Below, piece by piece: positions 51,998 to 59,495 of a DNA stretch of 64,000 nt; positions within the stretch are counted from its first letter, which is position 1; each line of letters opens with the position of its first letter. Source of the stretch: an uncultured beta proteobacterium (GTDB taxonomy: Bacteria > Pseudomonadota > Gammaproteobacteria > Burkholderiales > Burkholderiaceae_C). The DNA is taken from assembly GCA_903828235.1 (NCBI GenBank), contig CAIKLM010000122.1, positions 45,281-109,280 on the forward strand. Direction: 5' to 3'. The notes beneath the pieces are model-generated. The model worked only from the letters and a program-made list of their open reading frames with translations. It did not search any database and was not told the origin of the DNA. A program made the position numbers and the translations under genes.

Positions 51998-52015
51998 ACT
52001 GGACATGCATACAGT
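51998..52015. promoter_or_regulatory. LexA (SOS) box
   Basis: ACTGgacatgcatACAGT, i.e. CTG-N10-CAG. Confidence 0.82.
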
Positions 52016-52134: not shown

Positions 52135-52344
52135 ATGAACGCACCGCTACGCCACGACGTCTTCATCCGCCCTGAGCCCAGCCTGCAGCTGGATCTTCCC
52201 CTGGCCGCACACGGCGTGCAGCGCCACGTCTGGGAGAGCCGCTTCGGGAGCATGCTGATCGAGGTGCGCAATGGTCAGATCTTCGTCAATGGCCGCTTGG
52301 TGGAGCCCGCGGAGGGGCTGGGACCCACAGCGGCTTCGGCTTGA
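52135..52344 (+). CDS. Small protein preceding umuD-like gene
   Basis: MNAPLRHDVFIRPEPSLQLDLPLAAHGVQRHVWESRFGSMLIEVRNGQIFVNGRLVEPAEG. Confidence 0.55.
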   Translation: MNAPLRHDVFIRPEPSLQLDLPLAAHGVQRHVWESRFGSMLIEVRNGQIFVNGRLVEPAEGLGPTAASA

Positions 52345-52365: not shown

Positions 52366-52824
52366 ATGAACTCCGACGGCGCTACTGACGACCACTTCCT
52401 TGATGGGTCGCGGGTGGGCGCCGACGCAGTCGCGGCCGCGTTGCGCCCTCGCGGGCCCACGGCCTCGTCGGGGTTCGGCTCGCCGGGCAGCGACTTCACG
52501 GTACGGCGCATCGACTTGAACGACGCGCTGATCCGCCACCCCCAGGCCACCTTTGTGATGCGCGCCTCAGGGGATGCCATGGCCGGGGCCGGAGTAGGCA
52601 GCGGCGACGTGCTGCTGGTCGACCGCGCCGTCACGCCCCAGCACGGCCACCTTGTGATCGCCAAGCTCGACGGCGAACTGCTCTGCCGCCGCCTGGTGCG
52701 ACAGGCCGGCGTCGTCGCGCTGGAGACCGGCGAGACACCCGCGCAGCGCGTGCTCTGCAACGAGGCCCGGCCTCTGGAGGTGTGGGGCGTCGTCACCACC
52801 GTTATTCGCCAGCTGCTGACCTGA
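52366..52824 (+). CDS. umuD: UmuD homologue with substituted catalytic dyad
   Basis: SGFGSPGSDFTVRRIDLNDALIRHPQATFVMRASGDAM...GELLCRRL; aligns to UmuD with S60->A, K97->R. Confidence 0.88.
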   Translation: MNSDGATDDHFLDGSRVGADAVAAALRPRGPTASSGFGSPGSDFTVRRIDLNDALIRHPQATFVMRASGDAMAGAGVGSGDVLLVDRAVTPQHGHLVIAKLDGELLCRRLVRQAGVVALETGETPAQRVLCNEARPLEVWGVVTTVIRQLLT

Positions 52825-52839
52825 TCCCCGGGGCACCGC

Positions 52840-54186
52840 ATGTTCGCCCTGGTCGACGTCAACAACATGTACTGCTCGGTGGAGCGGGTGTTCAACCCTC
52901 GTCTCGATGGGCGGCCGCTGGTCGTGCTGAGCTCCAATGATGGCGCCTGCATCGCCCGGTCCAACGAGGCGAAGGAGCTGGGCGTGCAGATGGCGCAACC
53001 CTGGTTCCAGGTTCGCCACCTGCAGAAGAGCCACGGCCTGGTCGCGCTGTCGGCGAACTTCGAGCTGTATTCCGACATGTCGGCGCGCATGATGGCCATC
53101 GCCTCGCGCTACTCGCCCAATGTGGTGCCTTACTCCATCGACGAAGCCTTCATCGATTTCAGCGGCATCCCGGGTGACCTGACCGCTACATCGAGGCACC
53201 TGCGCGCCACGGTGCTGCAAGAGCTGGGGCTACCCACCTCGGTGGGCTTGGCGCCGACCAAGACCCTGGCCAAGCTGGCGAACCACATCGCCAAGACCTG
53301 CGACCGCAAGCCGGGTCACTACCCGACAGAGCAGTCGCGCCGCCTGGCCCAGGTGTGCAACACCGCCGAGCTGAGTGCTGCCGAACTCGAGACCCTGATG
53401 GCCGCCACCGACGTGGGCGACGTCTGGGGCGTGGGTCGCAAGATCGCGGCGCAGCTGAACGCGGGCGGCGTGCGCAGCGTGCTTGACCTCGTGAGCGCCG
53501 ATGTGGCCACGCTGCGACGCCAGTTCAGCGTGGTCTTCGAGAAAACGGTTCTGGAACTGCGGGGTACACCCTGCATGGGCGTGGAAGAGGCGCCGGCAGC
53601 GAAGCAGCAGATCCTGGTGTCGAGGTCGTTCGGCAAAGCCGTGACACACCTTGACGGCATCGTCGAGGCGGTGAGCGAGTTCGCCTCGCGGGCTTCTGAG
53701 AAGCTACGTCTGCAGGGCTCGGTCGCCGGGGCGATCCAGGTCTTCATCCGCACCAGTCCCTTCCGCGAGAACGAGCGCCAGTACAGCCCCAGCGTGACGG
53801 TGCCAGTACGGCCCACGGCCGACAGCCGCAAGATAGTGAGCGCGGCGTGCGAAGCGGCGCGTTCGATGTTCCGGCCGGGTTTCAACTACGCCAAGGCTGG
53901 TGTGATGTTGGTGGATCTGCAGCAAGCAGAAAGCCTCGGGGACCAAAGCGAGCTCGACCTGTTCGGGAGCGGAGAACCTGAAGCGAGTGAGGGGCCGGAC
54001 CGAAGTGCCCTGATGCAGGCCATGGACACCCTGAACCGCCGGTTCGGCCGCGGGGCAGTTCGTATCGGCAGCACTACAGCGGCGAAGGCCAATGATGCGG
54101 GGGCAACATCATGGGCCGTACGACAAGACCGGAGAACGCCGCGATACACCACGCGCTGGAATGAGATGCCGGTGGTGCGGGGTTAG
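52840..54186 (+). CDS. umuC: Y-family DNA polymerase V subunit UmuC
   Basis: MFALVDVNNMYCSVERVF; YSIDEAFIDFSG; 448 aa. Confidence 0.94.
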   Translation: MFALVDVNNMYCSVERVFNPRLDGRPLVVLSSNDGACIARSNEAKELGVQMAQPWFQVRHLQKSHGLVALSANFELYSDMSARMMAIASRYSPNVVPYSIDEAFIDFSGIPGDLTATSRHLRATVLQELGLPTSVGLAPTKTLAKLANHIAKTCDRKPGHYPTEQSRRLAQVCNTAELSAAELETLMAATDVGDVWGVGRKIAAQLNAGGVRSVLDLVSADVATLRRQFSVVFEKTVLELRGTPCMGVEEAPAAKQQILVSRSFGKAVTHLDGIVEAVSEFASRASEKLRLQGSVAGAIQVFIRTSPFRENERQYSPSVTVPVRPTADSRKIVSAACEAARSMFRPGFNYAKAGVMLVDLQQAESLGDQSELDLFGSGEPEASEGPDRSALMQAMDTLNRRFGRGAVRIGSTTAAKANDAGATSWAVRQDRRTPRYTTRWNEMPVVRG

Positions 54187-56779: not shown

Positions 56780-56912
56780 GATGCGCCCGTCGGACGCTTC
56801 GAACTGCGCGCATTCGTAGGTGGCTATGTGTTCCGACGCGGAGGCCGGGCGAAAACCTGGCAGTGTTCGCCCGTTAGCATTGTTCTTCGCGTGGGACACC
56901 CAGGGAGAAAAA

Positions 56913-59495
56913 ATGAGTCGAGTCCACGAAGAGATAAAGGCCTGGCTGCTGATGCAACAGGACTGGCTACAGGAGGCCGCAGACAGGCTCTTGAACCAGG
57001 GCCGGTTGCACGACCACGACATTGCCGCGGTTGCAGAGCTGCTGAAAACTGAGAAGGGCCAGGCGGTCACCAAGCATCGGGCCTACGCCTCGCTCACCAA
57101 GACGCCCGCGATTCCGGGCGAGCTGCGAATGATGAGCGTCTCGGATGTGCAGGGCATCGAGAACCTGTCGCCGAAGGCACCGCTCGATTTTGGGTCGGGC
57201 AACCTAGTGGTCGTCTATGGGCACAACGGCTCTGGCAAGTCCGGCTACACACGGATCCTAAAGAGAGCCAGCGGCAAGCCGCGTGCAGCGCCCTTAAAGG
57301 CGAACGTCTTTGGGGACGCTCCCGCTGCTCGGCAGTGCAAGCTTGAGTTCAAGGACGGGCAGAACTCGATAGCGTCGGTCTGGAAGGCTGACGACCAGGC
57401 GCTGGACGCGCTTCGAGCAATAGACATTTTCGACAGCGAGGAGGCGCAGCACTACCTGACCAAGGAGAGTTCTGCGGTCTACGTGCCTCCGCTCGTTTTT
57501 ATGTTCGAGCAGCTTGCCGCCGGCTGTGACGGCGTCAAGGAAGCTCTCCACACCGAGCAGGCCAAACTGGTAAGCGGTCTGCCTGCCATGCCTGCTGAGT
57601 TCGCAGCCACCGAGCCGGCTCGCCGCTACGCCGCTCTGCGGCCTGACATGACAGCGGCGGAGGTCGACCAGCTCACGGCGTGGATGCAGGAGCACGCCCA
57701 GCAGCTGACCGACCTGACAGAGCGGCTCAGGGTAGCCGACCCTGCAGCCGTGGCCACCCAGCGCAGAGCCAGGAAGGCACAGGTCCTTCAGATTGCCTTG
57801 GCATTGGGGAAGGGAGAGGCTGCCCTGGGCGAGGCTGGAGTCCAGGCCATTCGAGCGCTGCAGAACGCTGCCAAGGAGAAGAGGCGCGTGGCAACGGAGG
57901 CCGGAAAGGTCAACTCGGCGATCCTTGACGGTGTCGGCCAGCCGACTTGGCACGCGATGTGGAGCGCCGCTCGCGAGTACTCGCAGTTGGCGTACCCGGA
58001 AGGGAGATTCCCGGTCACCGACAAGGCGCGCTGCCTCCTTTGCCATCAAGAGTTACAGCCTGATGCTCAGCAGCGGCTCCAGGACTTCGAGGCCTTTGTT
58101 GAAAGCAAGCTAGAAGCAGAGGCGAAAGCTGCCGAAGAGGCACACGGGAAGGCTGTCGCAGCGTTGCCGACTGTGCCCAACGAAGGACAGTTGACGACTC
58201 AGTGTGCGGCGGCTTCCCTCGAAGAACCCGAGTGGCTCGAGAGCCTGAAAGCGTTCTGGCAGGCCGCCCGCCTAGCCAGTGAAGCGTTATTCGCCAGGGA
58301 GGCGAACAGGCCGGCAGTTCCCGCGCCCGCGGTCGCCGACCTCGTCGCTCGTTTGGAGGCCCGTGCGCAGGCACTGGAGGCAGAAGCGGTGCAGTTGGAT
58401 AAGGACGCCAAACTCTTCGACCGCGCCAAGGCTGCCAAACAAAAGTTGGCGCTCGAAGCGCAGCTATGGGTATCGCAACAGAAGGCCGCTGTCGTGACGG
58501 AGGTCGCACGGCGCAAGGCCTGGAACGACTTTGAGACTTGGAAGGGGCTTGCCAATCCAAGGCGAGTCTCCATCAGGGCCAGCGAGGTCGCCGAGAAAGT
58601 CATCACCGAGAGCTACGTCGGCCGCTTCAATGCGGAGCTTGAGGCCCTCGGAGCCAAGCGAGTTCGCGTCGCGATAGTCAAAACCCGCACCGACAGAGGG
58701 CGGGCCCTGCATCAGCTCAAGCTCACCGGGGTGAAGCGAGGGCAAGAGGAGCCGGCCGGGGTCCTCAGCGAAGGTGAGCGCCGCATCATCTCCCTCGCGG
58801 CGTTCCTCGCTGACGTCACGGGCAAGCCCAACATCGCTCCCTTCGTCTTCGACGACCCCATCTCGTCGCTCGACCAAGACTTCGAGTGGACCGTCGCCAA
58901 GAGGCTCGCTGAGCTGGCGAAGACGCGTCAGGTTCTAGTGTTCACGCACCGCCTGTCCCTCTACGGGGCCCTGGAGGACACGGCACGCAAGAACGGTGAT
59001 AAGTGGCGAGAGAGCAATCTGGTTCAACGCTGCATTGAGACATTCCTGGGAGCAGCCGGGCACCCCGTTGCCCAGGCGGTATGGAACTCGAAGACGGATG
59101 CCGCCAACAACAGCTTGCTTGAGCGGTTGAGGGAAGCCAAGCAGGCTGGTGAAGCAAGCGGCAGTCACATCTACAAGGCCCACGCCCAGGGCATCTGCAC
59201 CGACTTCCGCAAGCTCCTCGAGCGCACGGTCGAAGACGACCTACTGAATACCATCGTCAAGCGGCATCGGCGAAGCGTAACGACGGACGGCAAGCTGATA
59301 GCACTATCGGCAATCACCCATGCTGACTGTGCGTGCCTCGACACCTTGATGACCAAATACTCAAGCTATGAGCATAGCCAGTCGACCGAGACTCCGGCGT
59401 TCATTCCTGACGAGCCAGAGCTCAGAGCAGATATCGAGACGCTGAAGCAATGGAGGACTGACTTCCTGGCGCGACGCAAGGCTGCTCTCGGATAA
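56913..59495 (+). CDS. SMC-like AAA ATPase (AAA_13/RloC-PrrC-like) with CxxC hook; candidate defence protein
   Basis: YGHNGSGKSGY Walker A; RCLLCHQEL mid-coil CxxC; LSEGERRIISLAAFLADV signature; FVFDDPISSLD Walker B; RBS GGGAGAAAAA. Confidence 0.85.
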   Translation: MSRVHEEIKAWLLMQQDWLQEAADRLLNQGRLHDHDIAAVAELLKTEKGQAVTKHRAYASLTKTPAIPGELRMMSVSDVQGIENLSPKAPLDFGSGNLVVVYGHNGSGKSGYTRILKRASGKPRAAPLKANVFGDAPAARQCKLEFKDGQNSIASVWKADDQALDALRAIDIFDSEEAQHYLTKESSAVYVPPLVFMFEQLAAGCDGVKEALHTEQAKLVSGLPAMPAEFAATEPARRYAALRPDMTAAEVDQLTAWMQEHAQQLTDLTERLRVADPAAVATQRRARKAQVLQIALALGKGEAALGEAGVQAIRALQNAAKEKRRVATEAGKVNSAILDGVGQPTWHAMWSAAREYSQLAYPEGRFPVTDKARCLLCHQELQPDAQQRLQDFEAFVESKLEAEAKAAEEAHGKAVAALPTVPNEGQLTTQCAAASLEEPEWLESLKAFWQAARLASEALFAREANRPAVPAPAVADLVARLEARAQALEAEAVQLDKDAKLFDRAKAAKQKLALEAQLWVSQQKAAVVTEVARRKAWNDFETWKGLANPRRVSIRASEVAEKVITESYVGRFNAELEALGAKRVRVAIVKTRTDRGRALHQLKLTGVKRGQEEPAGVLSEGERRIISLAAFLADVTGKPNIAPFVFDDPISSLDQDFEWTVAKRLAELAKTRQVLVFTHRLSLYGALEDTARKNGDKWRESNLVQRCIETFLGAAGHPVAQAVWNSKTDAANNSLLERLREAKQAGEASGSHIYKAHAQGICTDFRKLLERTVEDDLLNTIVKRHRRSVTTDGKLIALSAITHADCACLDTLMTKYSSYEHSQSTETPAFIPDEPELRADIETLKQWRTDFLARRKAALG

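Follow-up and report, generated by a model that had tools for sequence, protein, structure and literature searches.

A umuDC locus was identified within the window, that is, the whole stretch of DNA analysed (64 kb). Its umuD-like gene has a product of 152 aa, and umuC begins 15 bases past the umuD stop codon; a predicted LexA/SOS box and a small ORF lie upstream (Table 1). The UmuD-like protein passed the NCBIfam profile of the UmuD subfamily (NF007621, 117.5 bits for a cutoff of 110), also matched Pfam S24 (Peptidase_S24) and aligned, at E ~1e-23 (HMMER), with the PDB entries for UmuD and UmuD', both dyad positions being in register. UmuD' was the top PDB match of its AlphaFold model in a fold search, the S24/UmuD core being present in both sequence and fold.

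Table 1. Features of the umuDC locus, in window coordinates
Feature	Position	Strand	Basis or remark
Predicted LexA/SOS box CTGGACATGCATACAG	51999..52014	+	CTG-N10-CAG site, 15/20 consensus matches
68-aa small ORF upstream of umuD (WESRFGSMLIEVRNGQIFVNGRLVEP)	52138..52344	+	Conserved in relatives
UmuD homologue without Ser-Lys dyad	52366..52824	+	Translation, family profiles, PDB sequence and fold searches
Former cleavage-site region SSGFGSP, Gly for Pro27	52465..52485	+	Clade versus canonical alignment
Ala codon GCC replacing catalytic Ser60	52576..52578	+	Ala71 in MRASGDAM (ASGDAM versus ASGDSM)
Arg codon replacing catalytic Lys97	52687..52689	+	Arg108 in GELLCRRL (LLCRRL versus FTVKKL); within fixed CRRL
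umuC, Pol V catalytic subunit	52840..54186	+	NCBIfam, Pfam; sole UmuC of this genome
Codon for UmuC Met10 (Phe in canonical sequences), adjoining steric-gate Tyr11	52867..52869	+	Alignment

The catalytic Ser60-Lys97 dyad was not found in this protein (UmuD residues 60, 97 and 27 are given in E. coli UmuD numbering), Ala and Arg occupying the two positions at a spacing of 37 residues, equal to that of Ser60-Lys97 in E. coli. Both replacements had been proposed in the earlier note and were borne out by translation and PDB alignment; its exactly conserved spacing and its reading of the cleavage region as SSGFGSP in place of QCGFPSP were likewise confirmed by translation. Owing to Ala and Arg at the dyad, the window protein is to be regarded as a UmuD homologue and not as an autoproteolytic UmuD. 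As judged from its sequence, it should be incapable of self-cleavage, which supports what had been claimed. Sequencing error, named in the earlier note as a possible refutation, and chance were both ruled out because the same two substitutions were found again in independent assemblies of several species, at 57-90% identity.

The neighbouring UmuC, said before to keep its D and DE motifs, indeed has an intact catalytic D6 and SIDEAF. It scored 401.6 bits against PRK03609 (cutoff 431) and matched Pfam IMS, IMS_C and DUF4113. The Y-family genes of this genome amount to this umuC and one dinB elsewhere. A few kb downstream of umuDC, at 56820-59495, lies a large AAA ATPase gene with a strong match (1042 bits) to PDC-S06, a candidate defence family of PADLOC.

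The predicted SOS box, by which the operon would be under LexA control, was the best CTG-N10-CAG site of the window (the runner-up reached 11/20) and is of the CTGG half-site type, as are the two boxes preceding lexA in this genome. The relative AAP51 (L101) has an SOS box at the equivalent place, and a comparable box was found close upstream in 15 of the 17 loci scanned from the clade described below. At seven loci (L007, L009, L092, L094, L098, L099 and L066) the predicted umuD start codon falls within the box, which begins 7-8 bases before the ATG and itself encodes the first UmuD residues, M-Y/N/S-S; this suggests either that the message is leaderless or that the true start codon lies further on.

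The small ORF is conserved upstream of umuD at seven clade loci and had no family match in Pfam, NCBIfam or PHROG. Members of its family, with the consensus W-E-S-R-F-G-x-M-L-I-E-V-x-D-G-x-x-F/Y-V-N-G-x-x-V-E-P, occurred in many contexts in 44 of 400 genomes of the same bacterial family, their neighbours varying from umuDC to a UvrD-like helicase and, on inspection by eye, apparent genes for PolB and DinG. A CTG-N10-CAG SOS-like box was present within about 210 bases upstream in 19 of the 20 loci read (L142-L161), and the product may be an SOS-induced small protein. A role as specific partner of the dyad-less UmuD was rejected as a general rule, since the ORF is absent upstream of umuD in more than half of the clade and most of its copies are found elsewhere.

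Members, phylogeny and selection in the Arg97/FGSP clade

UmuD homologues were gathered from GTDB contigs, 400 same-family genomes and 398 same-order genomes. The replacements of Lys97 by Arg and of FPSP by FGSP were shared by all 17 UmuDs of this type found in the family, where Arg97 accompanies FGSP without exception and neither Ser nor Lys is replaced in any canonical row read. Position 60 is occupied by Ala in 11 of the 17 members, Gly in one and Ser in five; Ser60 and Lys97 were kept in 101 of 101 canonical rows, a set containing some repeat copies. Named members include Rubrivivax MAGs, Beta proteobacterium AAP51 and Scleromatobacter, and a MAG labelled Silanimonas probably belongs to the group of these organisms. 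The 29 best-scoring loci of the order-wide search, a few of them from the same family, all had Ser/Lys, and searches of plasmids and phages gave only ordinary or HumD-like UmuDs among the matches listed. No description of an Arg97/FGSP UmuD clade was found in the open literature searched, and the novelty of the clade is provisional.

A tree based on UmuC and UmuD, excluding residues 60 and 97, placed all 16 members whose UmuC could be read in a single clade (support 100/99), so that the A/R clade envisaged in the earlier note does exist; with UmuC only, its support was 100/100. Residue 97 underwent a single K to R change on this tree, and residue 60 changed four times within the clade and never among the canonical rows. 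The simplest reading of these patterns would be a single loss of the general base followed by several losses of the serine, which was no longer needed once the base had gone. Residues 96-99 are fixed in the clade as C-R-[R/H]-L: residue 98 changed once in the clade versus ten times across 22 canonical rows; residue 60, by contrast, drifts.

Clade UmuD and UmuC are under purifying selection, the pairwise dN/dS values (NG86 estimates, some pairs being near saturation) ranging from 0.09 to 0.32 for the UmuD core, from 0.15 to 0.52 for the UmuD arm and from 0.11 to 0.34 for UmuC. The polymerase also carries changes of its own. Residue 10 of UmuC is Met in 15 of 16 clade members and Phe in 53 of 55 canonical sequences. 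Other changes fixed or nearly fixed in the clade are C36A together with A37C, G52A and L107F, and the C-terminal tail has, in all 16 members, two arginines at positions that vary in canonical UmuC. The sole clade UmuC with Phe10 (GLIDGNNFYV) is that of L094 (Scleromatobacter, G140), despite a dyad-less UmuD; a reversal or a recombination of the UmuC N-terminus is possible in this case.

The arm and the former cleavage site

Gly occupies the position of Pro27 in 17 of 17 clade members, whereas 95 of 101 canonical rows have Pro there. In E. coli UmuD, a hydrophobic segment of the arm keeps the cleavage site docked on the body of the protein. Canonical UmuDs have such a segment right before the cleavage site (TFPLFSDLV in E. 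coli), with a mean of 4.8 large hydrophobics per 10 residues of docking segment versus 1.06 in the clade, a difference whose significance is overstated by the p-value since related sequences were counted as independent. This loss was present on either side of the first split of the clade. Instead of a Cys/Ala-Gly site with FPSP and a hydrophobic arm, the window protein thus has SSGFGSP and has lost the docking hydrophobics.

The arm itself is weakly conserved in the clade and not lost: in the window UmuD it extends over 35 residues ahead of the old cleavage bond (36 ahead of FGSP), and the relatives share an N-terminal motif upstream of FGSP. Only L058, whose start lies 8 residues ahead of FGSP, approaches a start at the UmuD' N-terminus. 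The old cleavage bond persists as A-G or S-G in many members and is N-A, I-S, V-S or F-T in some others. In AlphaFold models at matched alignment depth, the arms were of low confidence in both the dyad-less UmuD and one canonical UmuD. Several points go beyond the earlier note: the remodelled arm, the UmuC changes, the probable loss of lysine before serine, and the SOS box and small ORF that precede umuD.

Known systems and independent parallels

The locus resembles that of E. coli Pol V in fold, umuC operon, LexA box and conserved core, but its UmuD differs by the absence of the catalytic Ser and Lys, by FGSP for FPSP and by an arm that lacks the docking hydrophobics. The pre-truncated UmuDs of cyanobacteria and phage P1 HumD (NF051876) are similar in that self-cleavage would not be needed; however, these proteins start at the UmuD' N-terminus, whereas the window UmuD keeps its 35-residue extension, and it scored 65.1 bits against the HumD profile, below the cutoff of 120. 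P1 HumD starts with MGFPSP and is annotated as complementing UmuD'. Its GDSM motif is lost, the region being degenerate, although the automatic alignment puts a serine there. In a cyanobacterial sample of 196 genomes and two found earlier, the three UmuDs starting at the UmuD' position (L019, L021, L191) all lacked the dyad (A/R, M/L and M/L, respectively), and most of those with an arm kept it, with the exceptions of L181 and L186 (degenerate). L181 (genome G966) has an arm and an SAGFPSP site, yet Ala/Arg at the dyad, and is apparently a further independent dyad loss. The short cyanobacterial UmuDs and HumD suggest that dyad loss tends to accompany ways around cleavage.

The engineered E. 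coli variants UmuD 3A and UmuD 18 are UmuD'-like and non-cleavable because their arm is undocked (PMC5342242); part of the arm is missing from UmuD 18, as it is from clade members L058 and L097. In these variants the dyad is intact, whereas in the clade the dyad is lost as well and UmuC has changed together with it. UmuDAb of Acinetobacter is another UmuD relative with a changed role, but its N-terminal domain, needed to repress damage-inducible genes (PMC4807011), has no counterpart in the window UmuD.

Proposed consequences for Pol V activation

Self-cleavage of UmuD is normally needed to switch on Pol V and provides the textbook delay until damage persists. Our data suggest that the Pol V of this clade no longer requires the cutting step, and we lean towards the view that a naturally non-cleavable UmuD permanently serves its UmuC as UmuD' would. 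Loss of cleavage alone does not activate, since in E. coli the S60A form of UmuD, whose arms are normal, allows little mutagenesis (PMC3901139). UmuD 3A, full-length with undocked arms, is non-cleavable and mimics UmuD' (PMC5342242), and a similar state would be expected of the clade, which has neither the dyad nor the docking segment. Between the two roles offered in the earlier note, that of constitutive partner is favoured by the lost docking segment, by selection and by the co-changed UmuC; that of decoy received no positive support, the gene forming an operon with the only umuC of its genome.

The same observations bear on other explanations. An uncleavable UmuD could be a permanent brake, locking UmuC into UmuD2C, the checkpoint state, and blocking mutagenic synthesis, as would follow from the lowered UV mutagenesis of E. 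coli S60A (PMC3901139). UmuC F10M fits in with this, because E. coli UmuC F10L has a higher accuracy and a lower ribonucleotide use and mutagenesis (PMC3493448), so that the clade polymerase may itself be less mutagenic. Yet E. coli UmuD needs the docking segment, lost in the clade, to hold its arms down, L058 is almost devoid of an arm, and a brake with no release left is difficult to reconcile with a UmuC that is intact and under selection; a brake is thus rather unlikely. Decay of umuD, with its UmuC on the way out, could be read into the lost dyad and into a serine site drifting among Ser, Ala and Gly, but seems scarcely credible given that dN/dS is well below 1 for UmuD and UmuC, that the frames are open in the members read, that an SOS box precedes most of them and that new sites were fixed instead of drifting. 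A pseudogene was rejected, the pattern being common to several species and under selection.

Processing in trans, also raised in the earlier note, would keep the cutting step through LexA, a second UmuD or another protease. The window genome encodes a LexA with intact dyad (L003) as well as a solo UmuD-like protein whose Ser-Lys dyad is intact (L002, C122:32589-32972), trans-cleavage of E. coli S60A in a heterodimer is known (PMC5342242), and many clade members keep an A-G or S-G bond. L002 has an unusual N-terminus (RQGAGRKAAYGEPTKTVRVP) and does not adjoin umuC, its neighbour being a gene that resembles the Gp37/Gp68 (DUF5131) type of phages; several genomes of the family have matches of equal frame length. 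In 10 of the 13 carrier genomes searched, however, the dyad-less UmuD was the only UmuD-like protein (E<=1e-12), which makes processing by a second UmuD unlikely in most of them. With the bond altered in some members and the arm segment needed to present the site gone, trans-cleavage was not favoured and is considered improbable, though cutting by LexA or another protease may yet occur.

Under the preferred reading, a permanent UmuD' equivalent, an undocked arm would leave the UmuD dimer able to bind UmuC once made. Binding being immediate, RecA-stimulated cleavage would cease to act as a checkpoint, and timing would then depend on LexA repression at the level of transcription and on RecA binding to UmuC. 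In a Pol V model, the UmuC C-terminus lies in the UmuD' active site and touches S36, T71, K73 and E69 (PMC11791011), which in our own reading of the published numbering (+24) are S60, T95, K97 and E93 of UmuD. Arg97 could plausibly retain a positive charge touching the UmuC C-terminal carboxylate while ending catalysis. The uncut UmuD chain would also have to pass the UmuC active site, and this may explain UmuD P27G, UmuC F10M and the 36/37 swap. A more complete scheme can be put forward tentatively, at somewhat less than even confidence: a cleavage-independent Pol V in which the UmuD protease cleft would serve as a fixed dock (CRRL) for the UmuC tail, the polymerase active site would be retuned (F10M, 36/37 swap) for an uncut arm and transcription would be the main switch for mutagenesis.

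The clade is one in which evolution has apparently removed the cleavage step, with matching changes in the polymerase. The fixation of Lys to Arg represents natural variation consistent with the modelled second role of the cleft in holding UmuC, and these organisms allow one to ask whether cleavage is essential for Pol V or an extra layer of safety.
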